NCBI GenBank assembly: GCA_964017235.1
Contig: OZ024928.1
Location: 88,283,566-88,347,565, forward strand
Origin: Sabellastarte sp. h YS-2021
Lineage: Eukaryota; Annelida; Polychaeta; Sabellida; Sabellidae
DNA length: 64,000 nt
Reading direction: 5' to 3'
The first letter of the stretch is position 1; the number at the start of each line of letters is the position of its first letter. The notes below the pieces were generated by a model. That model worked only from the letters and a program-made list of their open reading frames with translations. It made no database searches and was not told where the DNA came from. The position numbers and the translations under genes are program-made. This document shows, in pieces, positions 7,423 to 43,400 of this stretch.

Positions 7423-10400
7423 GTTTGTAGTACGAGTTAGGCCACTAAAACTATTACTACCCATTCTAGCTCTACTGTACAAAATTAAAACCTACCTGCT
7501 TCCCTGTCGAGAATGGTAACCGGTCCACAGACCTGTATCTTTCTAGTGTTACAAGTTCGGATATTCTGAAACTTAGAGAAGTTGTTTAGAAATTTTTCTG
7601 CTGTAATTATTTTAGGACTAGGGCCACATTCTTGCCATTTTAGAAACTAAAATTAAACCATTTATTCTTAAGCACCTGCCACTTGGTCAACTTTGAAACT
7701 AAATATTGATTCAGAATTTCAAGTGTCTACATCGTCAGTGGGTGTAATCTTTTTAAAATCCATGTTATCATCATATTTTTGAAATTGCAAGTGCCTCATG
7801 GTCATATCGAGTTTTTTTACAGGATGAAGATGTCCCTGTTCTGTTTTTCAACTAGTATCCATATAACTCTAGTTAGCTATATGGCGCAAATGTAGTTTAC
7901 TAATTTGTTAAAGTACTGATTTATTTGATGTTTAAGGTAATATGGATACCCCCCATATTTTCAAAAGGCATTAAACATATTTCATGGAAATATGTTTTTT
8001 CTGGGAATTTTTAGCTTAGAAAAATTTGAAAAGAAGAGCAGTTAAAAAGCTTGGTACCGGCAAACTGTATTGTAACCAACTATATCATGCCTTTCAGACA
8101 CTGTGACATTCCTAGAGACAGTATTACAGTCATTGGCAGTCAGTTGGATGAAGTCCTACGACTTCCAGACCCAAGAAAAAAGAAGAAGAAGAAAGACTTG
8201 GAGGAATCAAAACTACATGAGATAAAGTTTGTTGGAGAGGAGTTGGTGTACGGTACAGGAGAGGAGCAGCATACAGCAGTCATGAGAGTGTACGATGAAC
8301 TCTGTAAAGAGTTACGCTCCCTGAGAGACCTGCCACTGGGTATAAGTACAGTGCATGGAACAGCTGAGGTGTTTAGGTATAGTCAGGTGAGTACTGTATT
8401 AGATTACAGGTTACAAAAACCAGACAGGAGGGTGTATGATGAATTATTTAAAGAGAAATACTGACAGATCTGTCACTGGGTATAAGTACAGTGAATTGAA
8501 CAGCTGAGGTGCTTAGGTATACAATCAAATGAGTAATGTATTGCATTACAGATAATAGAGTGAAGAGGGGGGGGAGGAGGGTGTACTATTAATTGTATCC
8601 ACCGGAAGCATCCGGTGATACTTTGGTTTAGCGGTCGCTACGCCGCCGCCGCCGCGCGTAGAGAGATTTTCGGCGTTAACGCTCTAAGTGGAAAACAACA
8701 GCAGCTAGGTTCACCAAATTTGCAGGATATCTTCATTGGGGGGTAAGCTTCTCTGGGAAGGAAAATAGCCTCATTCTGAATAACAAGATGGCCGCCACGG
8801 GCATTTCTTTGAAAATAATCTACATTTTTCTACTGGCTGTTCCTCATAGGTAGAAGGTTGAATCTCTTCATAGGTGATATGTATGACACATATACATGTC
8901 CTCTACAACCTTGCACACATTTGACCTTGAAGCTCCTAACTCAAGGTCATCCACGGAGTGCCGAAGTAACCCACATAGAGGACTTTAAAAGTGCCCATAT
9001 CTCCCTTATTATTGGTCCTAGAGGTTTGCAATGTGAAGCCAACCTATAGGAAATCATGTGCTGCGAATCTTCTGATGTTGTCAGATTTGACCTTGGACCC
9101 CTCCTTCAAGGTCAAACGAGGATAGCCAAACTTAAAAGTGCTTATAACTCGCTTATTATCGATCCTAGAGGTTTGGGATGGTAAACCAACATATAGGAAA
9201 TCATGTGCTGCGAATCTTCTGATGTGGTCAGATTTGACCTTGGACCCCTCCTTCAAGGTCAAACGAGGATAGCCAAACTTAAAAGTGCTTATAACTCGCT
9301 TATTATCGATCCTAGAGGTTTGGGATGGTAAACCAACATATAGGAAATCATGGGTTCGGAATCTTCTGGTGTGGTCAGATTTGACCTTGGGCCCCTCCTT
9401 CAATGTCAAATGAGGACAGCCAAACTTAAAAGTGCTTATAACTTGCTTATTATTGGTCCTAGAGGTTTGGGATGGTAAACCAACATATAGGAAATCATGG
9501 GCTGGGAATCTTCTGGCGTGGTCGGATTTGACCTTGGGCCCCTCCTTCAAGGTCAAACGAGGACAGCCAAACTTAAAAGTGCTTATAACTCGCTTATTAT
9601 TGGTCCTACAGGTTTGGGATGGTAAACCAGCATATAGGAAATCATGGGCTGGGAATCTTCTGGTGTGGTCGGATTTGACCTTGGGCCCCCCCCTTCAAGG
9701 TCAAACAAGGATAGCCAAAGGTAAAAGTGCCTATAACTCACTTATTATTGGTCTTAGAGGTTTGGGATGGTAAACCAACATATAGAAAATTATGGGCTGG
9801 GAATCTTCTGGTGTGGTCGGATTTGACCTTGGGCCCCTCATTCAAGGTCAAACGAGGAGAGCCAAACTTAAAAGTGCTTATAACTCGCTTATTATTGGTC
9901 CTAGATGTTTGGGATGGTAAACCAGCATATAGAAAATCATGGGCTGGGAATCTTCTGGTGTGGTCGGATTTGACCTTGGGCCCCTCCTTGAAGGTCAAAT
10001 GAGGATAGCCAAAGGTAAAAGTGCTTATAACTCGCCTATTATTGGTCCTACAGGTTTGGGATGGTAAACCAACCTGTAGGAAATCATGGGCTGGGAATCT
10101 TCTGGTGTAGTCGGATTTAACCTTGGGCCCCTCGTTCAAGGTCAAATGAGGACAGCCAAACTTAAAAGTGCTTATAACTCGCTTATTATTGGTTCTAGAG
10201 GTTTGGGATGGTAAACCAACCTATAGGAAATCATGGGCTGGGAATCTTCTGGTGTGGTCGGATTTGACCTTGGGCCCCTCATTCAAGGTGAAACGAGGAC
10301 AGCCAAACTTAAAAGTGCTTATAACTCGCTTATTATTGGTCCTAGATGTTTGGGATGGTAAACCAGCATATAGAAAATCATGGGCTGGGAATCTTCTGGT

Positions 10401-13400
10401 GTGGTCGGATTTGACCTTGGGCCCCTCCTTGAAGGTCAAATGAGGATAGCCAAAGGTAAAAGTACTTATAACTCGCTTATTATTGGTCCTAGAGGTTTGG
10501 GATGGTAAACCAACCTATAGGAAATCATGGGCTGGGCATCTTCTGGTGTAGTCGGATTTGACCTTGGGCCCCTCGTTCAAGGTCAAATGAGGACAGCCAA
10601 ACTTAAAAGTGCTTATAACTCACTTATTATTGGTCCTAGAGGTTTGGGATGGTAAACCAACATATAGGAAATCATGCGCTGGGAATCTTCTGGTGTGGTC
10701 GGATTTGACCTTGGGCCCCTCCTTCATGGTCAAATGAGGACAGCCAAACTTAAAAGTGCTTATAACTTGCTTATTATTGGTTCTAGAGGTTTGGGATGGT
10801 AAACCAACCTATAGGAAATCATGGGCTGGGAATCTTCTGGCGTGGTCGGATTTGACCTTGGGCCCCTCCTTCATGGTCAAATGAGGACAGCCAAACTTAA
10901 AAGTGCTTATAACTCGCTTATTATTGATTCCAGTGGTTTGGAATGGTAAACCAACATACAGGAAATCATGGGCGGGGAATCTTCTGGCATTGTCGGATTT
11001 GACCTTGGGCCCCTCCTTCAAGGTCAAGTGAGGACAGCCAAACTTAAACTTAAAAGTGCTATAACTTGCTTATTATTGGACTTAGAGGTTTGGGATGGTA
11101 AACCAACATATAGGAAATCATGGGTTGGGAATCTTCTGGCGTGATCGGATTTGATCTTGGGCCCCTCCTTCAAGGTCAAATGAGGACAGCCAAACTTAAA
11201 AGTGCTTATAACTCGCTTATTATTGGTTCTAGAGGCTTGGGATGGTGAACCAACCTATAGGAAATCATGGGCTGGGAATCTTCTGGCGTGGTCGGATTTG
11301 ACCTTGGGCCCCTCCTTCGAGGTGAAACGAGGATAGCCAAACTTAAAAGTGCTTATAACTCACTTATTATTGATCCCAGTGGTTTGGGATGGTAAACCAA
11401 CATATAGGAAATCATGGGCTGGGAATCTTCTGGCGTAGTCGGATTTGACCTTGGGCCCCTCCTTCAAGGTCAAACGAGGACAGCCAAACTTAAAAGTGCT
11501 TATAACTCGCTTATTATTGGTCCTAGAGGTTTGGCATGGTAAACCAGCATATAGGAAATCATGGGCTGGGAATCTTCTGGTGTGGTCGGACTTGACCTTG
11601 GGCCCCTCCTTCGAGGTCAAACGAGGATAGCCAAACTTAAAAATGCTTATAACTCACTTATTATTGATCCCAGTGGTTTGGGATGGTAAACCAACATATA
11701 GGAAATCATGGGCTGGGAATCTTCTGGTGTGGTCGGATTTAACCTTGGGCCCCTCTTTCAAGGTCAAACGAGGATAGCCAAAGGTAAAAGCGACTATAAC
11801 TCGCTTATTATTGGTCCTAGAGGTTTGGGATGGTAAACCAACATATAGAAAATCATGGGCTGAGAATCTTCTGGTGTGGTCAGATTTGACCTTGGGCCCC
11901 TCTGTGAAAGTCAAATGAGGACAGCCAAACTTAAAAGTGCTTATAACTCGCTTATTATTGGTCCTAGATGTTTGGGATGGTAAACCAACATATAGGAAAT
12001 CATGGGCTGGGAATCTTCTGGTGTGGTCGGATTTGACCTTGGGCCCCTCCGTGAAAGTCAAATGAGGACAGCCAAAGGTAAAAGCGACTATAACTCGCTT
12101 ATTATTGGTCCTAGAGGTTTGGGATGGTAAACCAACATATAGAAAATCATGGGCTGAGAATCTTCTGGTGTGGTCAGATTTGACCTTGGGCCCCTCCGTG
12201 AAAGTCAAATGAGGACAGCCAAACTTAAAAGTGCTTATAACTCGCTTATTATTGGTGCTAGATGTTTGGGATGGTAAACCAACATATGGGAAATCATGGG
12301 CTGGGAATCTTCTGGTGTGGTCGGATTTGACCTTGGGCCCCTCCTTCAAGGTCAAATGAGGACAGCCAAACTTAAAAGTGCTTATAACTTGCTTATTTAT
12401 GTGTCTAGAGGCTTGGGATGGTGAACCAACCTATAGGAAATCATGGGCTGGGAATCTTCTGGCGTGGTCGGATTTGACCTTGGGCCCCTCCTTCGAGGTG
12501 AAACGAGGATAGCCAAACTTAAAAGTGCTTATAACTCACTTATTATTGATCCCAGTGGTTTGGGATGGTAAACCAACATATAGGAAATCATGGGCTGGGA
12601 ATCTTCTGGCGTGGTCGGATTTGACCTTGGGCCCCTCCTTCAAGGTCAAACGAGGACAGCCAAACTTAAAAGTGCTTATAACTCGCTTATTATTGGTCCT
12701 AGGGGTTTGGCATGGTAAACCAGCATATAGGAAATCATGGGCTGGGAATCTTCTGGTGTGGTCGGATTTGACCTTGGGCCCCTCCTTCGAGGTCAAACGA
12801 GGATAGCCAAACTTAAAAATGCTTATAACTCACTTATTATTGATCCCAGTGGTTTGGGATGGTAAACCAACACATAGGAAATCATGGGCTGGGAATCTTC
12901 TGGTGTGGTCGGATTTGACTTTGGGCCCCTCTTTCAAGGTCAAACGAGGATAGCCAAAGGTAAAAGCGACTATAACTCGCTTATTATTGGTCCTAGAGGT
13001 TTGGGATGGTAAACCAACATATAGAAAATCATGGGCTGAGAATGTATGTATGTATGTATTTATACTCAGCGCAATATCTCCATATACTACAGGACTCAAA
13101 GCGCTATTTAACCAATCCGACTGAACAGGTACAGCCCCAACTCACAAGTAACTCACATTCCCCTAACTGGAAGATAGAGGCTCAAGGATGACCATTTATC
13201 AACGTCCTTGAGGTTCTTTAACCTGCCACTGGGGATAGGACCCAATGACAGAGGACCGCCATTTTAAGTGGTCATCCGAGCCACTATGTATCTGCCTGTA
13301 CCTGGGATTGAACCCACGTCCTCTGAGTTCCTAGACAAGTGTGTTACCCGCTAGGCCAAGTGAGAATCTTCTGGTGTGGTCAGATTTGACCTTGGGCCCC

Positions 13401-16400
13401 TCCGTGAAAGTCAAATGAGGACAGCCAAACTTAAAAGTGCTTATAACTCGCTTATTATTGGTCCTAGATGTTTGGGATGGTAAACCAACATATAGGAAAT
13501 CATGGGCTGGGAATCTTCTGGTGTGGTCGGATTTGACCTTGGGCCCCTCCTTGAAGGTCAAATGAGGACAGCCAAACTTAAAAGTGCTTATAACTTGCTT
13601 ATTATTGGTCTAGAGGTTTTGGTGCATTGTCTTTACGGTGGATACAATTTGCATCGGTTTTCCGATGCACTAGGTCTAGTTATGTCAGGAGTTACACTTA
13701 CTGAGAGATCTGTCACTGGGTAAAGGTATGGTGGAAGGAACAGCTGAAGTGTTTAGGAATAGACTAGAAGCATATATATAATGCAAAATTATAAAGACCG
13801 GAAGTGCGCAGGCTACAGAAAACAATGCAGTGCGCATAGTTTTGCGTACAATTATCTGAGGCAATAACTGGCCAATCGCCGATAATACAGAACCAAACGA
13901 TACAGACAAAATATAGTGCAAAAAAATCCCTACGTACAGAGGCAGTACCAACGCACCTCCGGTATTCAACATTCAGCAAATTCCAGCAAAAATGCTCATA
14001 CAGTTAGCCACTCAGTCTAACTTTAACACCCTCAAGGGATATACTCATTATTACTATAACAGACTCTAGTCATAATGGCATCTGATGAGCCTCTCCGGGG
14101 AAACTGTGTTTTTCACACAAATATAGAACTATTACCACATGGGTCCTTTCCCTCATACAAAAGCACATACATAAAGTATTTGGGACTGTGATGTCATCAA
14201 CACCTCATATAAATGATGTCACACCTTATGACATCATACCGGATGACATCATAATCACCATAACAACAACCTACATCTCCAGGATCACCTTCAAATCTTG
14301 GATTTTGGTACTTGTTCCTAGGCGACCTAAACATCTGAATTGCTCAAACTCAGTTCAAACACAGTCACGCAATAGAGCACACGTGTTTTGGGAATTGTAG
14401 TTCACTTTAGCCAGGTTTACCATTGATAAATTTTCCAAAAAAAGGTTGGGGCCAAAGTACATTGTATTCAAGTACACAAGTACATTTTTTCTTATACTTA
14501 GTATGTATGTGTACTCATTGTACTCATGAGAAAATGTACTCGTACTTGTATTCGAATACATTCAAAAATAGGCTGTACTCATGACTACATTCTAAGCACA
14601 ATACGAGTACTTTTTCTCAGTATATTCCCTGTGATTAAGGACAAATCTGTTTTGCAAATTAATAATAATCTTTTCACAAAAGTCACACTTCCAATACAGT
14701 TAGCAGCAACTCATTTTGAAAATACAGCCCTGTTACTTTGTATATAAATTTTCCATTTACAAAGCTTTTGATATTTCCAGGTGTTTCCCATGCTTCCTGC
14801 ACCTTACACAGCCTCAGTATTGACAAGGGAGGGAGTCAGTTGTCCACTTTCAGACCAGCCTGCTCCACCCTTCACTCCAGCTATATCAGGTACTTGTTAT
14901 TGGGGATAGTATTGATATTGATAAAAAGGGAGTACCGGTATGTGGTGTAGTTGGCTACACACTCAACTCCATCGTAGTTCATGGATGTAATGCCATGTAA
15001 TGAATGTAATGTAATGAAGGGAGATAGTTGATAGTTGCTTGCCACATTGTTTGTGGCTCCTGTTATATAGTGATAAATATTGTAGTTTCAAACCTGCTTC
15101 AGTTGATATTTGTTAAAAGTCATTGGATCACAACTCCTCATAGAGTGATCAGTAAAAGTTGTTCTGTGATACTGATTTTTTATACCTTTTCATTTTTGTT
15201 ATCAACCCAATGACCTAGTTAAAAGAAGAAATGTTGAAACTCAATCAAAGTAGACTGAAATTGCATAATTTTTGTGATAAACTTATAAAAATGACTCTGT
15301 TGGGATCAGATCAGATTTGCAAAACTACTGATATCACACAAGGAAACTTTATACTGGAAGTAGTCATAACTCTTGAATAAGCGCTGTTTTACAGCCTTAG
15401 TTAAGGTGAACTTGAACCTGGTTGAAAAAAAGTTTTCTCATTCTCTTTTTATTCAGTGCTGTGTATGCTTGAAGCCAGTGGCAAGTGGCCGGATGACCTT
15501 GAAGCAGTAAAAAGGGTGAAGGCTGCCTTTCACCTTCAGCTGAGCAGTTTGCTAAATTCTAAGTGCAATCTCCAAACAAATGCGTTTCCAACTCATGTTG
15601 ATGTATTCAAGGTGAGTTTACGCTTCCCTTTTATTTTAAAACCTCCCACATCCATACTTATTCAAGTATACTATTTCACACAAATAATATAATAAATAAG
15701 GTTGTGACATGAGGGGCATAAGCTATTCTTTTAAGAGCCTATCCCTAAATTACTGATTCTCATCAAATTGAAAATGTTTATTCTAGCAGATTAACAACCC
15801 TCTTGTGAGGACTCCTCATATTAATGTTTGTGTATCTCCAAAGAGACAAGCTTTAGGTCAACCGTAAGTAGTGCAATTATTAAAGTATCACAATGAAATC
15901 CGTATAGAATATCCTTTTCTCAGAATTTTGTTGATTTGGCTTCCCAATTGTGAAATTTCAGAATGGAGATACTTGACAGAGGTCTGCATTCCATGAGTTT
16001 TTTCCAGTCTCGGTTTATATTTAAAAAAATATTGCTTGTTTGCCAACATCTCATTGTGACCAAGAAACAGAGACCATAGTGACATATACATTATGTTTGT
16101 GACTAAACAGCTCAACCCAGTTGATTCAAATAGAAAGGGTATGAATATGTCTACATTTTTATCCAGATAACAGGGCACCTTTTAATGCAAAAAGGTGAAT
16201 GCAAGGACTTCCAATACGTAGAGTATCTGGTTTCTACTTATGCCTAAATTCCACGTGCACCTACATAAATACAGCATTTTCTGGCTTTATTAGAATTGGA
16301 TAGACTTTGGACTAAACTGACTTAAGGATTCAACCCAGTCTTCTGTATATATTTAGCCTGTATATATAGTGTTTTTCAGGGCGGCTTTGTGTTCCGTGTA

Positions 16401-19400
16401 GAAGTGGGCTACTCCAAAGAAGTGGTTCTCATGAAGACAGTGAGAACTTCAGAAGGAATGGTGAAGATGGTGGACACAGAAGAGTCTCACCAGCTGGAGA
16501 GAAAGTACACCTTTATACCCAAACTCACTACCACGTTACAGAGGTAGGACTGAAGGTTTGCCTTTATCCTTTATGTACCCTCAGAATCAACTGCAAGACT
16601 CCCACGGATGGGCTTACAATAGCAATCTGAGAGCACACACCTCTGCCAAGGCACATAATAAGTAAATGGGAAAATTAGGATATTTTTTTTCATTTTGGTA
16701 TCCAGACTGTGATCCAGATCCGTCTCAAGATTTAATGGGACCTGACTTGGACCAAGACCCATCTTCTGTTTTTTTTTTTTTTTGTCATGAAGTTCTAGCC
16801 AGTAGTATTTGCATAATCCTGCTAACAAACTAACAAACAGACAAAATGTCATGAAAATACTATCTCCTTGGCAGAGGTAAAAATGGAGACCATTTTCCTT
16901 GATTTTTTTCCTAATAGTAGGCTGATGGAATTGTGGGTAATATATTCCTATACTTTGAGATTATGGGTGTGAGTTGTGGTTTAAATGGGAATGTTTAGGT
17001 GCATGCCAATGGAGTTTACAGTGATGTATCTTTACTTCTAGGATACACTGCCTTTCTCCATCCTGTCAGGTACCTGTCTTTATATGAACTATAGAATGTG
17101 TTAAAATTAGCATATAACTCCCAAAATATTAAATAAGACTCCACATTCATCAGAGTATCACAAGTTGTTGCAGTATTAAGAACCTGGTGTACATATCGCC
17201 CAGTTTTGATAAATTAAGAGCATTTGTTGACATTATTTTTCAGCATCCAACAGCGTTACCCAAGTTATTGTAGCAGTGTGAGACTAGCCAAGCGCTGGCT
17301 GGCTGCACACATGTTTCTCGGGGAGTACATCCCTGAGGATGCTGCTGACCTCATCATGGCCCACATCTACCTACATCCTGCTCCATACCAGGTGCCTGGG
17401 TAAGCATATATTCTGCAAAATATGTTAAATACAAGTGTATCCAAACTGTGCATGTAACCTTCAGTATTGTTCCAATATTGCACAAATGGACCTTTGTTTT
17501 GAAAAGCTTGTCTTTAATGTCTGACACCATGTCGCATCAATAAATAAAATGATTTGTTGCTTTTAAATCCGTCACAGAAGTTATCACTGATGGTTACAAC
17601 AGTTACAAACTATTGTGACACAAATCCTACACATGTCTTTCTCTTACTGTTGGTTCAGAAGGGCCATATCTCAGAAACCGTAAGGTGTAGGAAGTTAATA
17701 CGTGGTAGGGACATTAGTTAGGGGTGTAGGTGTGCAACCTCATTTTCTGACCTTGATTTGACCTTGCCGTAGTGACCTTGACTATAAAATCTTGTCCAGG
17801 CTGTATCTCGGAAACCGTAAGGTGTAGGAAGTTGATACTTGATAGGGACATCGGTTAGGGGTTGTAGGTGTGCAACGTCATGGTATGACCTTGATTTGGC
17901 CTTTGACCTTGCCGTAGTGACCTTGACCTATAAAATCTTGTCTGGGCTATATCTAGGAAACCATAAGGTGTAGGAGGGACATTGGTTAGGGGGTGTAGGT
18001 GTGCAACGTCATGGTCTAACCTTGATTTGACCTTTGACCTTGCCGTAGTGACCTTGACCTTTAAAATATTGTCCCGGCTGTATCCCGGAAACCGTAAGGT
18101 GTAGGATGTTGATACTTGGTAGGGACATTGGTTAGGCGGTGTAGGTGTGCAACGTCATGGCGTGACCTTGATTTGACCTTGCCGTAGTGACCTTGACCTA
18201 TAAAATCTTGTCTGGACTATATATCGGAAACCGTAAGGTGTAGGAAGTTGATACTTGGTAGGGATATTGGTTAGGGGTTGTAGGTGTGCAATGTCATGGT
18301 ATGATCTTGATTTGATTTTTCACTTTGCCACAGTGACCTTGACCTATAAAATCTTGTCCGGGCTATATCTCGAAAACCGTAAGGTGTAGGAAGTTGATAC
18401 TTCGTAGGTACATTGGTTAGGGGTTGTAGGTGTGCAACGTCATGATGTAGCCTTGATTTGACCTTTGACCTTGCCGTAGTGACCTTGACGTATAAAATCT
18501 TGTCCGGGCTATATCTCGGCAACCGTAAGGTGTAGGAAGTTGATACGTGGTAGGGACATTGGTTAGGTGGTGTAGGTGTGCAACGTCATGGTGTGACCTT
18601 GATTTAACCATTGACCTTGCCGTAGTGACCTTGACCTATAATGACTTGTCCAGGCTATATTTCGGAAACTATAAGGTGTAGGAAGTTGATATTTGGTAGG
18701 GACATTGGTCGGGGTTTATAGGTGTGCAATGTCATGGTGTGACCTGGATTTGACCTTTGATCTTGCATATCTGATGCTATTTTATCTCTCTACAGGGATA
18801 TGTGATACTATTTTGTCTCTCTTATATCTCTCATATCTTTTTACTTGAATCTTGGTTGTTGCACCTTTGGGTATCTTTTGATGTAGATTAAGCACTGTTA
18901 AAGTCATATTAGAATTCATTAAGGGTTTTACTTTTGCAATATCCCATTGTAACAGATGGTATTGCACCAAGTGAGTCACAGGTTTTGCCCCAACTCCACA
19001 TATAAGCATATATTGCCACATCTGTATGTATGGGTAATATTCAAAACATTCAAACCATAATTCGACCGTACATAATTGTGATATTTTCATTGACAGCTAT
19101 TCTCCAGGTAAGAAATTTTACAGCTTCATAACTTTAAGTTTACGGAATTGTCTTGCTTTATTGTTTAATCTTTACATGCAGTGCTCTGAAAGTATCCCAA
19201 TCTGTGTACTGTTTCACTACTTCTATATCTCTTGGTGTTGAAAACTATTTCCCCAGGCTGTGAGGTACGGGCATCTCTGATGCTATTTTTATTGAAGACT
19301 TTTGCCACACCCCAACCTCGCCTGCCCAATTAAAACAGTTTCAAAATTACATCCAAACAGTTTAGCTGAAAAAAAAGTGAACCGAGGATAAACCCTATTT

Positions 19401-22400
19401 TCAAAATAGTTCTTCTTGTGGCAATGAGTTTATTTTTAATTCAACCTTCACACCTCAAAATTATTTCTAAAATTTAATTGCTTTATTGTGTTTTGAATTT
19501 TTGGTAATTTTACACTGCTTAACCTTTTGGAAATTGAGTAGCTGTCAGTGTATTCCATTGTGTGAAATAATATGTTAGTACTATTCATCAATAACTACTC
19601 AATATAAATCCCATTAACTTTCTTTTCTTTGTAAATGGCCCATGTTTGCTAATCAGTGAGATGATTTTCGACATAATGGTTGTGGTCACTGTGCCTTAAA
19701 ATCTGGTTGAAGAGAGATTAAGTTCAATAAGATATTGGTTATATTGGATCAGATGATCCCTTGATATGTGACATGTTAATGTGTGGAAAATGAATCTGTA
19801 TCTCCTTCTTCATGAAGTATATTCCAAGAATTGTAAGTAGTTGCACTGCTCGCATGTTTTATTGCAGAGGCCCATTGGCTGGTTTCCTCAGATTCTTGTA
19901 TTTATTGTCCTCGTGGGATTGGAAGGCTCAGCCCATGTTAGTCAATCTGAATGAGAAATTCACAGGTCAGTTGCTAAAATAGTAATGTGTTCTTGTTGCA
20001 AGTACTTTCTACAAACAAAGGCCCAAAACAAAGTTATTTCAGAAGCAAAATCTTGAATATTTTAGTTATTTCGGGGGACACTAAAACAGGTCATTATGTC
20101 AATAAGAAATGCATTTTGAACACAAATGGTAATCAAAGTTGTACACTTGCAGGGGGGGGGGGGGGGGGGGGGGGGGATAATTTCAGTTACTTTGAAATAT
20201 GTTTCAGTGATTAAGAATATGCTATAACTAGCTTGTATAATAGAAATTAAGGAGACAAGCTCGTACTTGGTTGACAGATGAAGGACAGTCATCTGACTTA
20301 AGGGACTATTCACAAAACTTTTTATTCACAGAGAAATTGAGCTGATTTTTTGCTGGAATTTAGGGATGACTTTGATCCACCAGGTAGGTGGTTTAAATAT
20401 TTAATTATGGCTGAATATTCTGACTTGACCCCAAAAATTAGTGTAACTTTGTGAATACCATTCTAAGCCAAATGTTAACTTAGCCATTTTTAATAGCTCT
20501 TTTCCCATTATTCTGCCATAAGTAAAAGTAGGTCCTTTCCACAATATTGTTTAAATGTGACCTTTAAAAAACACAAATCTCTTGAATATCAGCAAGTGCA
20601 AGATAATTTTTTGGTACTACAATGTTGTAGTGGTTACTTTTTAGAAAATTTTGTAGTGAAATGACGTCAATATTGATACTGCGGTAAACAAAAAGTCAGT
20701 CACTTTACATCCTCTAATGTTACATTTGACATAACATGTTAACTATCTAACAGATAAGTTAATCCTTTTGAAGTGTTTATTTTGTCAACAAGTTACAATA
20801 GTACAGGTATATGTTAAGTATCTAAAATTTTTGAGAAGTATTTTATAGTCACTTAAACTGAACCCTCAGTTCTTCTTTTAAAAGAATTTTTTAGCCTTAT
20901 AAAACTTATTAAAGATGTATACAAAGTTAGATACATATATTCCGAAGTTTAATTTTGGAAAGTAGATGGCCTATTTAGTTTTATTATCTCAGTTTAAAGG
21001 TAAACAAAAAGTTAGATCTAAAATGTAAAGGGTCTTGGCTAAAAAGGATAAAACTGTCTCGTGAGGTCAAGTTCTTACATTTTTGTCATTATCATAGTTT
21101 TTTTATTGAATGACTCTTCAAGAATCATTGTACCTTAGTGTAAGTGGAAATAAGTGAAAAAGTTTTAGTAATTTTGACAAAAGACAATTTGTTTCAGTCT
21201 ACATGCAGAAGCTGCAAAGCAATAAGAAACAAGAGTAGTGCACTAGAGTAATGCACAATTCAAATTCTGGAGACAAAATAGTGATCTCTAGAAGCGTAAG
21301 CCTCAAGTAGAACTTGCACATGAAGATCACCAAAATTAATAATAAAAAGTAATAATCATTTTCCGGTTCAGCGATGAACACAGATATAAATGTTCTTAGC
21401 CATTCAAACAACTTTCACCATCCAAGATCAGGAGGTAATAAGCCTGGTTAAAATTTTCACCGCTGTCTCCATTTCTACTTGTCATTTGTGTCTCCAGATT
21501 AATCCAGTTTACACCCATTGTCTCAAAGGATGATAATCTGGTGCCACAATTCAGCTATAATAATACTTTGTGTTAGTGGTCGGACCATTTACAAAAATCA
21601 GAAGGAACAATTTTCAAAACAAGTATTTGTTATGCAATAAAATTGAAATTGAAAATGAGGTTAATTTTGTTATTCAGTGTTAAGAATATTTGCCAGTTTG
21701 CAAACTACTTTGTATCAATTCGAGAATGTAGAATGTCTACTATGTGTACCAATAATTAGTGTAGGGGAGAACTGATTTTGTTTTATAGAAGTTCCTTTTA
21801 TCATATACACATTTTATTTAAATATTATGACTTAAAGTGACTTGTAAACCTCTATGGTGGGGTACTAAACGTGTATTTTATATCTTTGAAATAACTGTGC
21901 TATAACACAACTTCAGTAAAAGATAAATTTATGTATGTAATATTTTTTTGAGTAACCAGATCACTACTTCTCATTTTCTAAACAGACTTGTGCTGTTTTG
22001 AGGTGCCCTGTACCCATTCATAACCTTAAATACTGCTAACTATAACACAGACCTCCACCAAGTATTCCGATATTGTAATTTCTCCCAAATATTGCTAATA
22101 ATCAGATAGCAGGACACAGAAAATATAAGGACTGATATTGTACACTAGGTCATGGGCCCTGAAAGCTCAGTGAAAATGGGACTGTTGGCCATTCCGGATG
22201 TTTTTGTATCCAGAACACAATCCGGATCTTTTCCAAAATTAATTTACTTAATCTTTCTTTGGTCAAGTGCTGCCCACATGAGTAAAATTCAGAAAGATAT
22301 GTTCATTAATTTTGAAATAATTGCAAACACAGACAACAAAACAAAACAAAATAGGCAAAAGCATAACATTCTTAGCAAAGATTGTAATCAAAGAGGAGCT

Positions 22401-31400: not shown

Positions 31401-34400
31401 AATTTGCAGGAGCTTCCATTACTTCATCAGAAGGAGCACAATCTCCTTCTGTTATTAGATGCTTTCTTTAAGGGTTGGGATGCACAATTATGGCATCAAA
31501 CAGCCAGTGGTCTGTTGTATCATGAGGGGTCAAGACTCCACATTAACAGGGCTACTACCTTTAGAATCATTTGGAGGTCTGATTCGGATTCTGAATCTGT
31601 TGATTTCCCCAGATATTTCTTCAGTGGTTTCCTATCTGAACAGGTAGGGAGGTACCCACTTTCAGGAATTTGTTTCCTTATCTGAAGAATCATTCCTTGG
31701 ACGAATGCCATGGGTTCAGATTCAGGCATATCACTTCCCAGGGTATACAAATATTCCAACAAATTCTTTGTTCATGAAAGTCAAGATGATTCAAATTGAA
31801 TGTGTTTTGGATGACTTTTGAATCTTCTATTCTGATTCAGGTGTTCAATCAAATCTGTCTTTGATTACAATCACCAATGATGGGTTTGTTTTGCAACTAG
31901 TTTGAACCACAAGCTTGTCTTTTTCAACTTTTCTTGGGATGGACTGGACAGTTTGTTTGGTCCTTTGACCTTGATTCTTCAGGTGATGCAGGTGAATCAT
32001 TTGGCTTCTAAGGCTTCTTTGGTTTGCAACCTGTAGTCATTCCTGCTTTGGAACCTTCTTTAGATCTTGCTTTGGTCAAGATAGGTTTCTTTGTCCAGGG
32101 AGAGCCTTGAGAGGTTATCTGGATAAGTCAAAGATCTCAGGAAAGGCAAGGAAATTCTTTTTGTACCTAGTAAGAAGGGCTACTCCAAGATTTAGGTGCA
32201 GAATCCTCTGGATGGCATCAGAGTGGCTAGGGATGTCTTATCTTTGGGATCTGGTGGATCTATTCCACAAAGGTTCCTTTTAAGGCTTCCCTTGCTGGTG
32301 AGTTCAATCATTATGCCATTGGTATCCAACAACCTGAATCTTAAGCTTCCAGTGTATGTGTTTCCTTTCTTAGACTGTGGGGCTTGGGGAACAGGTCCAT
32401 TCTCATTTCTTGGGAGGATCTGGACAGCTTTGTGTTTGTTCCAGTGGCTCTCATTCCTCAAGTGACTCAAGATGATCACCTACAGGTGCAGAATCATCAT
32501 GATTGCACCAGGATAGCCAAGATTCTTCAGGTGATTTAGAAGATGACCACCTTCAGTTGCAGATTCATCATGTTTGAATCATGATGGTCATGGTGGATGT
32601 TCTTGGTTGTGGGACCTGGTAAATCTATGCACATCTGAGGCTTCTTGGTGGTGAACTTCTCAGATACTACTTTTCTAGATGTAGCAAATTTCCTTAATTA
32701 TTTCTTTAAGGAAAGGAATCTTAAGCCATCTACTATTGCTGGTTACAGAATAACAATGGTAGATTGCTTTCCTTGAAGGGGAATAAGTCTCTAGAACTCT
32801 TCAGCTGTATAGATTGTTGACATATTTCTATAGAGACAATCCAGTAGCCAATAGGTTAAGCCTTCTTTTCCTTTTGTCTCTGGTCTTGTTTGGTCTCACC
32901 AGACAGCCTTTTGAGCCTTTGGGGAAGATTTCTTGGAGGTTATTAACTTTCAAGACAGTCTTTCTTTTGACTTTGGCATTAGGCAAAGGAAGAAGGGTAT
33001 TCTCGTTGGCTTTGTCTTCCCTTACTTTGAATAAGTATTGCTCACAAGTGGCTCTGGCCATTTATTAGCCAAGATTCAGTTGGCTTCGGATGGGCCTACT
33101 TCAGTTAAGCCGGTCGATATGCCAGCTCTCAATCACTGGGACAGCAGTTTTATTCAAGATAGATCTCTTTGTCTTGTGAGGTTTTGAAATACTTTTACTT
33201 GGGACTAAGGATTCAATGAGGAATTATTATGTCTTGTCTGTGCCTAGTTAAGAAGGCTTTACAGCAGATATTTTCAGGTCAACTATCTTTTCTTGCTGTA
33301 GGCAGACTAGCATTTTGACTGAGGAGAAGTCAAATTCTGACTCTCAACAGCAGCGAGTCAAAGCAAGAATCTTTGGGTTTTAGGATAGTGTTTCTGTATA
33401 TGAATTTTCAGATGCCAGTTAATGGAAACCATAACTTTTTCACCAATTTTCAGTCTCACCTGCTTGGTTTGCTTGTGGTCAGACTTTGATATTGTGTCCT
33501 ACAGTTTGTTATCTTATAAGTATATGTGTGATACTTATTTTGATACTTTAGTATACATTTGCATCTGTATGTCTGTCATACTATCTGTCTTTTTATTAGG
33601 CAGAATTGTTGACTTCATTCAGGCTTGGAATTACACAATATGCTGATGACACTTCCAATATTTGTGTCACATGTGTGGGTGTTGGATGTTTGTCTAGATA
33701 CAGCATTCAACTGTGACAGTGACTGTCAGTTTGTGAGAACTTCAACTACATACTATGATTTAGGGGATCTGTATGGTATGTGGTGACTGTTGGAAGTTTA
33801 TATGTTGTGGTATGCATGTAAATTTCAATGTAAACTTCTCATAATGTTTTAGTTGTAGGCTAGGTAGTGAGTCTCTGTTATGATTACTTCCTTCCTACAA
33901 CAGCAACAACAACAGCAACAAGGCTGTGTTGTTTTGTAGTGCTCAACAGTTCCACTGCCTCATCTGGGAGGTGAGTTTGGATCTGAATGCCTATAGGTTT
34001 GTGCTGTGTATGATAGCTGTGCAGAGTGGTGTACTGGGTCTTTAAATTCTAGTACTGCCCTCCTTCCATGAAGGCTGCATTCAGCAATGGTCAGGAAATG
34101 GTAAGTGTATTTTTCGCAATAAAATTGAAAAATTTTGTTGTAATTTTAATTATATCCCCAGACGAAAGTCGGGGATATATTGGATTCAGGTCCGTCGCGC
34201 CGCCGCCGCCGCCGTAGAAATTTCCTTGTGGACGCGATAACTCAAAAACAAATTAATATTTTTTTTTCAAACTTGGTACACATGTTAAGGGTGCCCAAAG
34301 GAAGATCCCTATTTTAAGGTGACCTTAAACTCCCAGTAAAAAAGAACTTATGGCCACCTTAAGGTCAGAAATTGCACTTTTGGCCACTTAGAGCCCTGTA

Positions 34401-37400
34401 GGTCACAAACTATGATGCTCAGCTGGCTGAAATTTTACCTGACAACACATTAATATGTTCTTAGTACATGTGCCGAAAATCATGACTTTAAGTTGAGGAG
34501 AAAATTGTGTTTCAGGCCCATAAATACCCCCACTTAGGGATTTTTTGCTATACTTTACACATATTTTGCCCTATAATTTGGAAGTGATAATTCTGATGAG
34601 TCTCAAACTGCGCTAGGTATAACTTTGATATGTAATCCTTGTCTGTAGAAAATTTTAGGGCTGTAGGTTTACCCAAAGGGGTCGACTTAAGGTCTCAAAA
34701 GTGCCCACAGAGACCCAATTTATGCACTTTTTGCCACTTTCAAGCACTGTAGCTTTCAAACTATGTCTCTCATCTAAGTTAAATATCATCTGGGAATATA
34801 TCTATGTGTTTTCTTATATGTGCCCCAACATTTAGGCCTTTAATAGACAGTTAACCTGTGTATCAGGACCATAAACACCCACCCGAGTGACCCTTATAAG
34901 ACATTTTTCACATCTTTTTCCCTGTAACTTGGAAATGGTAAGTCTGAGAAGTTTCAAACTGTATTAGATATATATTCTGTGTGTAATCTTAGTATGTAAC
35001 AGATTTTAAGTCTGAAGCTTTAATTTTGAAGGTCAAATTGAGGTCTCTAAAAGGCTCCCAAAGACCCAATATTTGGACTTTTTGCTACTTTTAAGCCCTG
35101 TGACTGTCAAACTATGTGACTGATAGAGCTCAAATCCTATCTGAGAAGATATTAGTATGTTATTTTTATATGTGCCAAAAATTAAGGCTTTAAGAAGACA
35201 TTTAACCTGTGTATGAGGACCATAAATCCCCACCCGAGTGACCATTTTTAGACATTTTTCACATATTTTTCCCTGTAACTTGGAAATGGTAAGTCTAAGA
35301 AGTTTCAAACTGTATTAGATGCATATTCTATGTGTAATCTTAGTATGTGACAAATTTTAAGTCTGAAGCTTTAATTTGAAGGCCACATTTAGGTCTCTAG
35401 AAGGTCCCATAAAGACCCAGTATTTGGACTTTTTGCCAATTTTAAGGCCTGTGACTGTTAAACTATGTGACTGATAGAGCTGAAATCTCATCTGGGAATA
35501 CATTATTATGTTCTTTTTACATGTGCCAAAAATCAAGGCTTCAAGTAGACATTTAACCTGTGTATGAGGACCTTTAACACCCACCTGAGTGACCCTTTTA
35601 AGACATTTTTCACATATTTTGCTCTGTAACTTGGAAATGGTAAGTCTGAGAAGTTTCAAACTTTATTAGATACATATTCTATGTGTAATCTTAGTATGTA
35701 ACAAATTTTAAGTCTGAAGCTTTAATTTGAAAGCCACATCGAGATCTCTAAAAGGCCCACAATGACCCAATATTTGGACTTTTTTCCACCTTTAAGCCCT
35801 GTAACTGTTAAACTATGTGATTGATGGAGCTGAAATCCCATCTGGGAATGCATTATTATGTCCTTTTTACATATGCCGAAAATCAAGGTTTTTAGTAGAC
35901 ATTTAACCTGTGTATGAGGGCCATAGACACTCACCCAAGTGCCTTTTTTGACATTTTTTCCGTATTTTGCCCTGTTATTTGGAAATGCTTAGTGTGACAA
36001 GTCTTAAACTGTATTATATATGATTTTTGTTTGTTATGTATGTCCCCCCAAAAAGTTTCAAATCTGTAGTTTAATTGCTAAGGTCTCTTTAACAATTGTA
36101 AAATGCCCACAGAAACCCAATTTATGGATATTATGCCACTTAAAGCCCAGTAACTGTCAAACTATGTGGGTTATAGAGCTGAAATCTTTGAATTTTTAAA
36201 AGGAAATGCCTGTCTATTTAAATTTTGAATATTAATAATGTTATGGCTATCTTAGTCTTTTAAGAACTTATTTTTGTGTGTTATACCTCTGCTTGCTGAG
36301 TTTTTCACTTTTTAAAATGAAACTGGTTAAACATATTGAAGTAGACAAAATGGACACTTTAAGTGAGCTTTAAGTCCCAATATTAATGAAATTATATCCT
36401 TATGTAGTAAAACTAGGGGATTTTTAACCCTCAACTAGCCCAGTTTTATTCAACTTGCCTCAGTTAATTTTGGCACAGCTCCTACAGTTATGAACTCATT
36501 TCAGTTGATAATCACATACTTAAAATTCTCAATTCTTTTTGTATTTGAGTACCCCTTTTATATAGATTGTTTGTTTACCATTTATGCTCAACCCACATCC
36601 CCCACCCGGATTCCCCCCACCCACCTCTGGGACCTCCAGCTATATTGAGTGACACTAAATAAACAAAGGTATTTAATGATATCAGATGAGAAACAAAGAA
36701 CTCAATGGGGTTGCAGATCTTGTGTAATAGTGAGAGAGGTGTGGAGAAGGGGAGAGGGGTGGGGGTGGGAGGTGGTGGGCTTCATTACATATAACACAAA
36801 GGGGAGTCAGAACTGAGATTGTGTCACATATTTAGGTTGCATATATATGGACCACATATATAGGTATAGAGGAAATGAATAACTGAAAACAATTTGCAAA
36901 TTCTAAAAATAATATAATAAAATAATAATATAAATAATTTTTTTTTAAATAATATTTTATTTGTGAACAAATATAGAAACAGATATGCGCTTTTGGGATT
37001 ATGAATTTTAGAATGGACATTGAATCATCAATCATTTAAATACTTTGAAGGAAGATTGAAAAATATGATGAGTTGAGTTAAAAATAATATTTTATTTGTC
37101 AACAAATATAGAAACAGATATGCTCTTTTGGGATTATTATTAAGCGTCCCGCAAGGGACGCTTGTTTGTGTATGGGAGAGCTTCTGGCTCCGCCGGCTCC
37201 GCCGGCTCCGGCGGCTCCGCCGGCTCCGCCGGCTCCGCCGGCTCCGCATTTTGTTTTCCTTATAACTCTGTAACCGTTAGGCGGATTCTTTTCAAATTTG
37301 GCAGGTTTAGGCAGTAGCCTTGGGGAATTTTTTTGAATATGCTGCAGTGACATTTCAACCAATCAGAGAGGTCACATGACCAAAAATGTCTTTTTTCGAT

Positions 37401-40400
37401 GGGGAAGCTTGTCCGGATGATAACTTGAAAGGAATTTTATCAATTCACCTGAAACTTGGCAAATACATTCATTCTATTAAAATCTGGAAATCATTAGATT
37501 TTGGCATTGATTGGTCAAGAAATGGCCGAGTAATTAATGATTAATTAATTATTACGAATTTTCCAAATAAGGAAAACACAAAAATGCTTATATCTCGAAA
37601 ACCGTGCTAGATAGAGCGATTTCGACGAAATTTTTGACCCGCAGGGTATCTCTGCGGAGTAGTTTTCCCAATTTTCAAAAAATTTTTGTCTCGCCCAAAA
37701 TGGCGGCCATTTTGAATTTTCGAAATTTTCGCAAAAATTGCAAAACACAAAAATGCTTATATCTCGAAAACCGTGCTAGATAGAGCGATTTCGACGAAAT
37801 TTTTGAGCCACAGGGTATCTCTGCAGAGTAGTTATCCCAATTTTGAAAAAATTTTTGTCTCGCCAAAAATGGCGGCCATTTTGAATTTTCGAATTTTTCA
37901 CAAAAATTGCAAAACATAAAAATGCTTATATCTCGAAAACCCTGCTAGATAGAACGATTTCGACGAAATTTTTGACCCGCAGGGTATCTCTGCAGATTAG
38001 CTGCCAATTTTCAAACAAAAAATTTCTCGCAAAAAATGGCGGCCATTTTGAATTTTCGAATTTTTCGCAAAATTGCAAAACACAAAAATGCTTATATCTC
38101 GAAAACCGTGCTAGATAGAGCGATTTCGACGAAATTTTTGACCCGCAGGGTATCTATGCAGAGTAGCCATGCCAATTTTCAAAAAAATTTTATCTTGCCA
38201 AAAATGGCGGCCATTTTGAATTTTCGAATTTTTGCGCAAAAATTGCAAAACACAAAAATGCTAATATTTCGAAAACCGTGCTACATAGAGCGATTTCAAC
38301 AAAATTTTTTATCTTCAGGGTATCTCTGCAGAGCAGCTATCCCAAAGAGCTTTCACTTGGTGAAGTTTCAGACCCATAGCTAATTGCTCACCTACTCAAG
38401 AGGTCCTCAGTGGCCTAGTGGTTAGCAAGTTTGGCATCTAATCATAGGCTGTCACCTCTGTGGGTTCGAGTCCCACAAGTGGCAATTCTGAGGACCTGTC
38501 CCAATATGACCCTGGCTGTTGAACGGGACGTAAAACCCCAACTTTGACCTTTGAACTTTGACCTACTCAAAAAGAGTAAATGCGAATTACCTCTAAAAGT
38601 ATTGCAGATGGCCAATTTTTCTCAAATAACTCATTCACCTACTTTTGGAAGAGCTTTCACATGGTGAAGTTTCAGACCCATAGCCAATTACTCACCTACT
38701 CAAAATGAGTAAATGTGAATTATCTCTAAAAGTATTGCAGATAGCCAATTTTTCTCAAATAACTCTTTCACCTACTTTTGGGAGAGCTTTCACATGGTGA
38801 AGTTTCAGACCCATAGCTAATTATTTACCTACTCAAAATGAGTAAATGCTAATTATCTGTAAAAGTATTGCGGATACCCAATTTTTATCAAATAACTCAT
38901 TCATCTACTTGTGGGAGAGCTTTCACATAGTGAAGTTTCAGACCCATAGCTAATTACTCACCTACTCAAAATGAGTAAATGCGAATTATCTCTAAAAGTA
39001 TTGCAGATAGCCAATTTTTCTCAAATAACTCATTCACCTACTTTTGGGAGAGCTTTCACTTGGTGAAGTTTCAGACCCATAGCTAATTACTCACCTACTC
39101 AAAATGAGTAAATGCGAATTATCTCTAAAAGTATTGCAGATAGCCAATTTTTCTCAAATAACTCATTCACCTACTTTTGGGAGAGCTTTCACTTGGTGAA
39201 GTTTCAGACCCATAGCTAATTACTCACCTACTCAAAATGAGTAAATGCGAATTATCTCTAAAAGTATTGCAGATAGCCAATTTTTCTCAAATAACTCATT
39301 CACCTACTTTTGGGAGAGCTTTCACTTGGTGAAGTTTCAGACCCATAGCTAATTACTCACCTACTCAAAATGAGTAAATGTGAATTATCTCTAAAAGTTT
39401 TGCAGATAGCCAATTTTTCTCAAATAACTCATTCACCTACTTTTGAGAGAGCTTTCACTTGGTGAAGTTTCAGACCCATAGCTAATTACTCACCTACTCA
39501 AAATGAGTAAATGTGAATTATCTCTAAAAGTATTGCAGATAGCCAATTCTTCTCAAATTAATCATTCACCTACTTTTGGGAGAGCTTTCACTTGGTGAAG
39601 TTTCAGACCCATAGCTAATTACTCACCTACTCAAAATGAGTAAATGCGAATTATCTCTAAAAGTATTGCAGATAGCCAATTTTTCTCAAATAACTCATTC
39701 ACCTACTTTTGGGACAGCTTTCACTCTGTGAAGTTTCAGACCCATAGCTAATTACTCACCTACTCAAAATGAGTAAATGCGAATTATCTGTAAAAGTATT
39801 GCAGATAGCCAATTTTTCTCAAATAACTGATTCACCTACTTTTGGCAGAGCTTTCACTCTGTGAAGTTTCAGACCCATAGCTAATTACTCACCTACTCAA
39901 AATGAGTAAATGTGAATTATCTCTAAAAGTATTGCAGATAGCCAATTTTTCTCAAATAACTCATTCACCTACTTTTGGGAGAGCTTTCACTTGGTGAAGT
40001 TTCAGACCCATAGCTAATTACTCACCTACTCAAAATGAGTAAATGCGAATTATCTCTAAAAGTATTGCAGATAGCCAATTTTTCTCAAATTAATCATTCA
40101 CCTACTTTTGGGAGAGCTTTCACTTGGTGAAGTTTCACACCCATAGCTAATTACTCACCTACTCAAAATGAGTAAATGCGAATTATCTGTAAAAGTATTG
40201 CAGATAGCCAATTTTTCTCAAATAACTCATTCACCTACTTTTGGGAGAGCTTTCACTTGGTGAAGTTTCAGACCCATAGCTAATTACTCGTCTACTCAAA
40301 ATGAGTAAATGCGAATTATCTCTAAAAGTATTGCAGATAGCCAATTTTTCTCAAATTAATCATTCACCTACTTTTGGGAGAGCTTTCACTTGGTGAAGTT

Positions 40401-43400
40401 TCAGACCCATAGCTAATTACTCGTCTACTCAAAATGAGTAAATGCGAATTATCTCTAAAAGTATTGCAGATAGCCAATTTTTCTCAAATAACTCATTCAC
40501 CTACTTTTGGGAGAGCTTTCACTTGGTGAAGTTTCAGACCCATAGCTAATTACTCACCTACTCAAAATGAGTAAATGCGAATTATCTCTAAAAGTATTGC
40601 AGATAGCCAATTTTTCTCAAATAAATCCTTCACCTACTTTTGGCAGAGCTTTCACTTGGTGAAGTTTCAGACCCATAGCTAATTATTCACCTACTCAAAA
40701 TGAGTAAATGTGAATTATCTCTAAAAGTATTGCAGATAGCCAATTTTTCTCAAATAACTCATTCACCTACTTTTGGGAGAGCTTTCACTCTGTGAAGTTT
40801 CAGACCCATAGCTATTTATTCACCTACTCAAAATGAGTAAATGCTAATTATCTGTAAAAGTATTGCGGATACCCAATTTTTATCAAATACTCATTCATCT
40901 ACTTGTGGGAGAGCTTTCACATGGTGAAGTTTCAGACCCATAGCTAATTATTCACCTACTCAAAATGAGTAAATGTGAATTATCTCTAAAAGTATTGCAG
41001 ATAGCCAATTTTTCTCAAATAACTCATTCACCTACTTTTGGGAGAGCTTTCACTCTGTGAAGTTTCAGACCCATAGCTATTTATTCACCTACTCAAAATG
41101 AGTAAATGCTAATTATCTGTAAAAGTATTGCGGATACCCAATTTTTATCAAATACTCATTCATCTACTTGTGGGAGAGCTTTCACATGGTGAAGTTTCAG
41201 ACCCATAGCTAATTACTCACCTACTCAAAATGAGTAAATGCGAATTATCTCTAAAAGTATTGCAGATAGCCAATTTTTCTCAAATAACTCATTCACCTAC
41301 TTGTGGGAGAGCTTTCACTTGGTGAAGTTTCAGACCCATAGATAATTATTCACCTACTCAAAATGAGTAAATGTGAATTATCTCTTAATAGTATTGCAGA
41401 TAGCCAATTTTTCTCAAATAACTCATTCACCTACTTTTGGAAGACCTTTCACACACGAAAATGAAAAATTGTGAATATCTCGGAAAAGCTATTTATTCTG
41501 CTTTAATGCTCGGCGGGAGATACACACCACGGCAGTGGTCTTGACAAAAATTTTTGTCTCCCCAAAAATGGTGGCCATTTTGAATTTTCAAAGTTTTTGC
41601 AAAACACAAAAATGCTTATATCTCGAAAACCGTGCTATATGGAGTAAACTCAACAAAATTTTGGACCTGCTGGGTATCTCTGCAGAGTAGCCATGCCAAT
41701 TTTCAAAATATTTTTGTCTCGCCAAATATAGCGGACATTTTTAATTTTTTTATTTTTTGCAAAACACAAAAATGCTTATATCTTGAAAACCGTGCTAGAT
41801 AGAGCAGACTGCGCTGACTTTGGTTGCCACAACAGTATAAGGCTAGAAACGAAGCATTTTCTTAATACTTTAGCACTCACCTTTATATCCTTTTCGGGAC
41901 GCTTTGTTTTTGCTATGCAAAAACATTATCTTTTTTTTTTGCGAGCGATCCTCTAGTTTTAGAATGGACATTCAATCATCAATCATTTAAATACTTTGAA
42001 AATAGGTTTAGAGTTATCATTGCAGGAAGATTGAAAATATAATTTGAGTTATGTATTCGGCGTCTGGGGATACACCATCTTCCTTGGGGAGATATAAACA
42101 GAGTAGATTGATGTGCTGAAGTTCATATAATAATGGGTAATTATGTTTTAAAAAATTCCCGATCAAAACCTGTGGTGTGAGTGATGACCTGTCTGGGGAT
42201 ATGTTGGCGCCGAGTTGGCCCAATCTAGTTTTTATTAGATAAATACTTACCATTTCCTGACCAGGATAGTCCCCCCCCTGCCTCCCCGCAGATTCAGTAC
42301 TAGGGGAGTATTTTCTGCAACAAAAATAATGAAGGTTGTTTACTAGCGTGGTCACATTACCACTAGGGGGACATGCTAGTTCACACTCACTCACTGGCCT
42401 CTTAAGGTTTCTTAAAACGTTTCTCAACGTTGGCCAGTGAGTTGGATGGCACCAACATATAGCAATGGTCAGGAAATGGTAAGTATTTATCTAATAAAAA
42501 TTAAAATTACAACAAAATTTTTCAAATTTCTTTTGTTGACCCTAAAATATGCATATTGTCAAGTAAAAATAATTGAGTATATGTTGGTGCACAACTTAAG
42601 ATACCAGCAAAACTTAGGATCCTGAGCTCACGCCAGTCTTATTAATGGCTGACCCATGTTCAGATGTGTTTTTTGCTTGCTTAAAGTTATGTTTATTTTT
42701 GCTATTTTAACCAAATAGTACTGTGTTGTCCTAGTGTGTAATAATAGCCTGGACCCAAGGATTTGCATTCAACTCAGTGTCAAATTATTATTTATTATTC
42801 TGTGCAAATTAAAAAGGCCGTGGGTTACAGCTTAATGTTGCTTGAATGCCTTCATATGCTAGATTTGTCTCTAGTTGTACACTTGGGTTCTTGTCATCTC
42901 TGATAACATTTAACTATTATTATTTTGACAAGATTTACTTGGGTTTGCAGGCAGCATTTGGAGACTTGGCCCTGTTTTTCTATGATATATATGGTGGGTC
43001 TGTCGTTGGTGTGATATGGAAGCCCCAGGCACTCTCTGATAAACCTTTCCAGGTGAGTACATAGAGCTAGTGGTGAATGGTGAGAAAGTTTGAAGTGTAG
43101 GAAGGTTAATTTTCAACACATGGTCAAAGAATACATTGCTTAAAATTTGTACACAAACGAACTATGGACAGTGGCTACCAGACTACAAGTAAAAGATAAA
43201 CAGAAGCAACAGAACGTGAAATATAAATTGCAAGGGATTAGTTTTAATGAAGGTTTCAGCATAATGTAATCTAGTCCATAGTTTGTGTTTGAACTAGTTG
43301 TTTTGATTTTCTCTTGTTATCTCTAGAAGATGTGAGGAGTTCATTAGTTTAAGCATTTTTCTCAGTAAGATTACTATAAGATTAAACAACAACAGAATCA

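Follow-up and report, generated by a model that had tools for sequence, protein, structure and literature searches.

Satellite-carrying elements of three families in a Sabellastarte genome, very probably non-autonomous Helentrons

A shared layout in three families

We analysed a 64,000-nucleotide stretch of the Sabellastarte sp. genome (C2:88283566-88347565, within a 1.786-Gb genome of 647 contigs), hereafter called the window. It contains exons of an Nrap-type gene, several mobile elements and four copies of satellite-bearing elements from three families: C, A (copies A1 and A2) and B, with A2 nested within B. All four copies have their parts in the same order. They begin with a 5' hairpin and a GC-rich microsatellite; a leader and one or two satellite arrays come next, and the 5' arm in inverted copy and a palindrome lead up to the final CTAG, which is followed by TT. 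We conclude, with a probability of about 0.93, that A, B and C are three non-autonomous Helitron2/Helentron-type rolling-circle families (HINEs) carrying satellite arrays. The original prediction, made from the letters of the window, had proposed that the three share one terminal layout and that they resemble Helentrons and HINEs in their ends and in T/T insertion. Both proposals are borne out by the termini of the four copies, by copies elsewhere in the genome and by empty sites.

Element ends, target sites and empty sites

The genome was probed with the 5' ends of A and C. The A probe gave 552 first-look candidates, the best 40 of which were scored and 28 loci fetched; the C probe gave 179, of which the best 40 were scored and 30 loci fetched. 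For the best 40 A candidates 41 matches were listed, 39 at 100% identity (rounded, and including A1 and A2), one at 98% and one partial at 89%, and all 40 scored C matches begin at base 1 of the query. It had been expected that other genomic copies would share the boundaries seen in the window, and at the 5' side they do, with one common first base in 28/28 fetched A copies and 30/30 fetched C copies. The predicted starts of A1 (23639), A2 (37141) and B (34151) stand, while that of C moves from 8590 to 8594. The flanks (95-97 bp) differ among the copies of each family, except for one pair in A (L044 and L053, 97.9% alike) and one in C (L014 and L028, 83.7% alike); a single 23-bp match was seen between a C flank and an A flank.

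The target site is strongly preferred. Flanking the 5' end, the fetched A copies read T (28/28), T (25/28), A (26/28), T (28/28) and T (28/28), a TTATT-like sequence, and the fetched C copies read T (30/30), A or T (27/30), A (26/30) and TT (30/30). The whole TNATT target is present in 26/28 A and 26/30 C copies, and the TAAT/T of the single B copy fits TNAT/T. The elements themselves start with TA or TG, and none with TC.

At the other end, CTAG before T had been predicted and holds throughout: all four window copies, B included, have CTAG before TT, and with the genome copies the count for complete A and C copies is 13/13 (8/8 C loci reaching the end, the window C, and 4/4 A copies, namely A1, A2, L061 and L062). 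The inverted 5' arm measures 10 bp in A, 52-53 bp before the 3' end, and 12 bp in B, 26 bp before it. In the window copy of C it measures 14 bp and lies 30 bp before the end; three of these bases pair with the left flank, which leaves 11 bp as the element's own. An arm of 10-13 bp at 23-50 bp from the 3' end had been proposed, which describes B and C well, but A lies slightly outside the distance. In C, the 13-bp 3' subterminal inverted repeat (subTIR), 11 bp of which pair with the 5' end, is unchanged in all nine loci reaching it. Sequences were folded alone as DNA, each against 200 shuffles, and the 3' palindrome folds at -9.1 kcal/mol in C (0/200 shuffles as good), -6.3 in A (3/200) and -5.2 in B (3/200).

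A paralogous empty site was found within the window for each of the four insertions, with uneven quality. The flanks of C align, with a gap-free junction, to a tandemly duplicated and diverged exon fragment, and both flanks of B align to the contiguous reverse strand of 42455-42570. At the A2 site (36945-37080) the junction shows mismatches and a gap of one base, and the A1 site, on the reverse strand of 42290-42390, matches the left flank over 178 bp at 96.6% and the right flank over 9 bp only. Compared with the empty site, the filled site of A1 and of B contains two extra Ts, TT is present at both junctions, and the empty sites show no duplication beyond TT. Because TT stands at both junctions, the insertion point of A1 and B is ambiguous by up to two bases, and a like ambiguity is reported in the HINE literature (PMC7492417, PMC4067079).

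Two features of the surroundings were noted alongside. Exon-like fragments at 8277-8409, 8421-8551 and 13683-13762 are tandem duplicates, 78-83% alike, and element C lies within the third. B is adjoined by a sequence of ~280 bp (42226-42503) resembling a miniature inverted-repeat transposable element (MITE), with 38-bp inverted ends (97%), and next to A1, at 23462-23639, a relative of it (96.6%) is found in inverted orientation.

Comparison with known rolling-circle elements

Satellite carriage by non-autonomous Helentrons, the layout and a T-rich target are in print (PMC7492417, PMC4067079, PMC8268682, PMC11136912, PMC5139131). The layout itself is the published HINE signature, to which the present analysis adds the TNAT/T target in A and C, the 3' CTAG, a near-identical A copy and a ~32-bp motif described below. 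In keeping with that signature, the subTIRs are terminal at the 5' end and lie tens of bp inside the 3' end, a 3' palindrome is present (weaker in A and B), and an inverted repeat, a microsatellite and tandem repeats occur together. TT insertion takes place without further duplication, and checks of open reading frames (ORFs) and motifs found no transposase coding capacity. ORFs of at least 150 aa (stop to stop) are absent from A1 and A2; B has one on the minus strand, which spans its 3' end and has no Pfam match, and three in C, also on the minus strand, are satellite read-throughs. A simple six-frame pattern search of the window found no Rep or helicase motifs.

Cg_HINE of the Pacific oyster is described with a 5' subTIR, a complementary inverted repeat, a microsatellite, a variable spacer, satDNA-like repeats, a 3' subTIR, a palindrome and TT insertion (PMC7492417), a likeness to our elements at the level of the described layout. 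There, too, unrelated families share one layout, at times with two arrays per element, and our arrays of up to 27.6 monomers fall inside the oyster range (average 3.6, longest 29.3) (PMC7492417). Unlike Cg_HINE, family A has a microsatellite unit of 9 bp (3-8 nt in oyster) and a subTIR of 10 bp (11-12 in oyster), and the target is here resolved to TNAT/T, where the HINEs of the oyster are said to favour T-rich sites and TT (PMC7492417). With HINEs, DINE-1 and Helentrons as a group our elements share subTIRs, a 3' stem loop, a preference for TT, a variable number of Ts and optional microsatellites and tandem repeats (PMC4067079). The 3' subTIR lies 26-53 bp from the end here and 38-60 bp in mite families of that study, which also shows an autonomous Rep/helicase/endonuclease partner for its Helentrons, whereas the elements described here are known as non-autonomous copies (PMC4067079).

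FoHeli1/2, Helitron2 elements of Fusarium, carry a 5' hairpin, the arm of which is found again in inverted orientation close to the 3' end, and insert after TNAT (PMC5148889). Their GAA loop has G first and A last, as have the loops of A and B, but they end in ATTTT instead of CTAG and include transposase-encoding copies; the excerpts of that account mention no satellite array, and give the target as TNAT/T in a figure legend and TNAT/A in the text (PMC5148889). Helraiser, a canonical bat Helitron, has a 3' palindrome followed by CTAG-3' joined to T, as here, but differs in having no inverted repeats, a 5' TC and an AT target (PMC4778049). Of the marks of canonical Helitrons (Helitron1), our elements have a 3' CTRR after a hairpin (the CTAG of B and of all 13 complete copies of A and C), and do not have a 5' TC, an AT target or freedom from inverted repeats.

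By analogy with published Helitron work, transposition would start with a nick in the donor strand, made at the 5' end (behind TNAT in the target) by a Rep/helicase whose gene lies elsewhere. A single strand would then be peeled off up to a stop at the 3' palindrome; the 3' hairpin of Helraiser is reported as a stop signal (PMC4778049). After a cut behind CTAG, the strand would be joined into a new TNAT/T site, with the satellite array travelling as cargo. Some points weigh against our conclusion. The A and C copies compared were the best-scoring ones, with old and divergent copies under-represented, and B is known from its single window copy. A complete 3' end is not shown in 22/30 C loci, the empty sites are uneven (9 bp on the right of A1, a one-base gap in A2, a diverged copy for C), and both the enzymatic partner and the rolling-circle intermediate are putative.

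The 5' hairpin, its loop and the microsatellite

The original prediction had also suggested that the GC-rich stretch beside the hairpin and the GNRA loops are extra structure, and a transposase might recognise hairpin, stretch and loop as such. We consider this clearly unlikely. A 5' hairpin does occur in all three families, and folds at -9.5 kcal/mol in C (1/200 shuffles as good), -11.1 in A (0/200) and -9.5 in B (0/200). The loops of A (GCAA in 28/28 fetched copies) and B (GAAA, one copy) are indeed GNRA loops, in the context C-GNRA-G, and the fungal FoHeli1/2 hairpins have loops of GAA (PMC5148889). The C loop, however, is AGCA in 27/30 copies, GGCA in 2/30 and AACA in 1/30, and with GNRA in 0/30 copies the loop was rejected as a rule. 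Since a four-base loop has a chance of 1 in 32 of being GNRA from base counts alone, its occurrence in two families out of three is no more than suggestive, and none of the literature matches listed brings Helitrons and GNRA together.

The stem of C argues in the same direction. All 12 pairs are kept in 13/30 copies, this perfect stem being the commonest form, and 17/30 copies break a pair. Covariation in the stem had been put forward as a check, and no both-sided (compensatory) change was found in the 12 pairs across the 30 C copies; the A hairpin offers no covariation signal, being identical in all 28 fetched copies. Three of the variants that break a pair in C are shared, by 6, 6 and 3 copies; a few others are rarer, and the breaks cluster in two neighbouring pairs. 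Since several copies share each break, C elements with an imperfect stem were probably still moved. Changed cells number 4/360 in the 5' arm (three variants) and 16/360 in the hairpin 3' arm (four variants, in 6, 6, 3 and 1 copies), and the latter arm is unchanged in 6 of the 9 C loci that show both ends. The notion that the 5' arm is the more constrained was dropped on recount, and no conclusion on this point is drawn because the independent events are few. Conservation of the hairpin bulge was likewise discarded: B and the window C have a bulge, but the form seen most often in C (13/30) is a perfect stem. The base lost in the window C is also lost in 6/30 C copies.

As regards the GC stretch, a GCC/GGC trinucleotide run had been predicted for all families; it is GCC in C and B, but in A the unit has nine bases (GGCTCCGCC), and in C the length of the run differs among copies. 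When hairpin and stretch were folded together, 0/200 shuffles did as well for A, 4/200 for C and 23/200 for B, which makes the longer structure of B unremarkable. The HINE literature lists at this position a highly variable microsatellite with 3- to 8-base units (PMC7492417). The GC stretch is this microsatellite, already listed for HINEs (PMC7492417, PMC4067079), and no need for a recognised structure follows.

Inverted repeats near both ends could also mark MITEs or other terminal inverted repeat (TIR) elements, moved by a cut-and-paste transposase, and similar bivalve and insect elements were once classed as MITEs (PMC5139131, PMC4067079). This is very improbable for A, B and C. Neither terminal inverted repeats nor a target-site duplication of the TIR or MITE kind is seen: the repeats are subterminal and asymmetric, placed at the 5' end on one side and 26-53 bp short of the 3' end on the other, and the empty sites lack any duplication beyond TT. 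CTAG closes B as well as the 13 complete copies of A and C. Coincidence among ordinary satellite arrays has a practically negligible probability: similar layouts do arise by chance in a loose scan (mean 0.72 per strand, maximum 4, in 60 simulated sequences), but the boundaries are common to 28/28 A and 30/30 C fetched copies with nearly all flanks different, and empty sites exist. The same scan of the window gave four hits on the plus strand (A1, A2, B and one chance-like, C not being listed) and none on the minus strand; taken alone it is weak evidence, and the question is decided by the copies in the genome and the empty sites. A fourth candidate element (22380-31900), with a 15-bp inverted repeat near CTAGT, has by reading no hairpin, microsatellite or 3' palindrome, and was taken as chance.

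Recent spread and satellite cargo

The HINE-like family A has a copy on contig C5 (L061) that is 99.98% identical to A1 over all 5386 bp, the array included, with both ends exact and different flanks. Since the identity extends over the array, the array moves as part of the element. A2 is 95.9-97.0% identical to A1 in two long blocks, and A2 and L062 (contig C14) have shorter arrays and 2-4% divergence in long matching blocks. Judged by such identity, part of family A spread very recently.

The C monomer contains TTATT twice. As it carries the TNATT target, elements can land in each other's satellites; among the 28 A copies fetched, L006 lies within a C array, as does, by reading, a degenerate C-like end in L033.

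The arrays also contain insertions that by reading resemble short interspersed elements (SINEs), at 38399-38534 in A2 and 13053-13362 in C. Relatives of the former lie at 45951-46075 and 63663-63808, and of the latter at 62445-62754. By reading, the C array continues beyond its SINE-like insertion to ~13615.

A motif shared by leaders and satellites

A motif of ~32 bp (about GGGCTTATAACTCGAAAACCGT) is found both in the satellite monomers and in the leaders, where it follows the microsatellite. It was fitted to eight sequences, namely three leaders and five satellite units (two of A, one each of B and C, and one of the neighbouring repeat E at 17975), and compared with dinucleotide shuffles of the same eight, using 60 versus 15 starts in the first run and 80 on both sides in a repeat. 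At width 32 the score was 107.7, against a mean of 79.6 (sd 2.8, maximum 87.3) in 40 shuffled sets, and at width 24 it was 81.3, against a mean of 61.7 and a maximum of 71.3. The position in the C leader, and at some widths also in the 133-bp unit of A, moves with the motif width. In a hold-out trial, not fully independent in that three training stretches came from the first fit, 4/5 held-out sequences were recovered: the shuffles as good, of 1000, numbered 0 for the A leader, 0 for the B satellite, 25 for the C leader and 34 for the A 133-bp unit. The B leader was missed (663/1000). When viral contigs were scanned for the satellite motif, two stretches were obtained.

The bodies of A, B and C had been called unrelated. 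This holds in part, but because the motif is common to leaders and satellites the bodies are probably less unrelated than that. Conserved motifs are likewise shared by bivalve satellites, BIV160 and Cg170 having two in common (PMC5139131). It is conceivable, though in our estimate rather unlikely, that HINE families are bound by more than their ends, their satellites having grown by tandem amplification of one functional module such as a putative binding or replication-pause site.

Features and neighbourhood of the elements

The coordinates of the elements and their parts are collected in Table 1.

Table 1. Parts of the four satellite-carrying elements, in window coordinates
Feature	Position	Strand	Description	Basis
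Element C	8594-13679	+	HINE with 147-bp satellite, 27.6 monomers	subTIR pair, 3' palindrome, CTAG/TT, gap-free junction against diverged exon-fragment copy
C 5' hairpin	8595-8621	+	loop AGCA; one-base bulge in window copy (3' arm lost one base)	folding
C GCC microsatellite	8642-8655	+	length differs among copies	
C satellite array	8985-13043	+	147-bp unit	Tandem Repeats Finder (TRF)
C 3' subTIR	13636-13649	+	inverted copy (14 bp) of 8591-8604; 8591-8593 belong to the flank	
C 3' palindrome	13650-13669	+	-9.1 kcal/mol	0/200 shuffles equal it
Element A1	23639-29024	+	5386 bp	full-length near-identical copy on contig C5, alignment stops at both ends
A1 5' hairpin	23640-23661	+	loop GCAA	folding; identical in 28/28 fetched copies
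A1 microsatellite	23684-23745	+	9-bp unit GGCTCCGCC, 6.9 copies	TRF
A1 satellite arrays	24071-28519	+	169-bp unit, then 133-bp unit	TRF
A1 3' subTIR	28962-28971	+	followed by palindrome 28972-28992	
Element B	34151-42228	+	351-bp satellite; interrupted by A2	flanks on both sides align to a single unbroken stretch
B 5' hairpin	34151-34179	+	loop GAAA, single bulged A	folding
B GCC microsatellite	34200-34215	+		
B satellite array	34690-36186	+	351-bp unit	TRF
Element A2	37141-41956	+	4816 bp, inside B; array shorter than that of A1; one SINE-like insertion	
A2 3' subTIR	41895-41904	+		
B 3' subTIR	42191-42202	+	followed by palindrome ~42204-42223	

The Nrap-type exons of the window were identified by Pfam matches to Nrap_D3 (E 1e-19) and Nrap_D5 (1.7e-10); a match to Nrap_D6 (E 4.7e-4) is under its cut-off. 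In animals this gene is presumably the one named NOL6. A decayed reverse-transcriptase region lies at 3581-5953 (Pfam RVT_1, E 3.7e-5, under cut-off), and scans of the window with Rfam and for tRNAs gave 0 matches each. Repeat E is present in two copies, at 17661-19291 and 47560-48613, with a satellite of ~140-146 bp and a common 3' part ending near GATGCTATTTTT. No HINE-type ends were found on these copies in the window. The C copies L014 and L028 occupy an identical position within an E element. Long inverted-repeat palindromes were also observed at 44951-45072 (91% self-complementary) and 57417-57701 (72%).

Implications

In the search for the enzyme that mobilises HINEs, an element of this type whose ends are exact and whose activity is recent offers a good point of entry, the oyster study having been unable to pair its elements with such an enzyme (PMC7492417). 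The TNAT/T and CTAG/T junctions common to unrelated families suggest which bases may be read by Rep, and also which features, such as the GNRA loop and the GC stretch, may be dispensable. The window offers clean examples of satellite DNA spread by rolling-circle transposons, in which a complete 5.4-kb element is copied with its arrays nearly unchanged, two copies differing by about one base.

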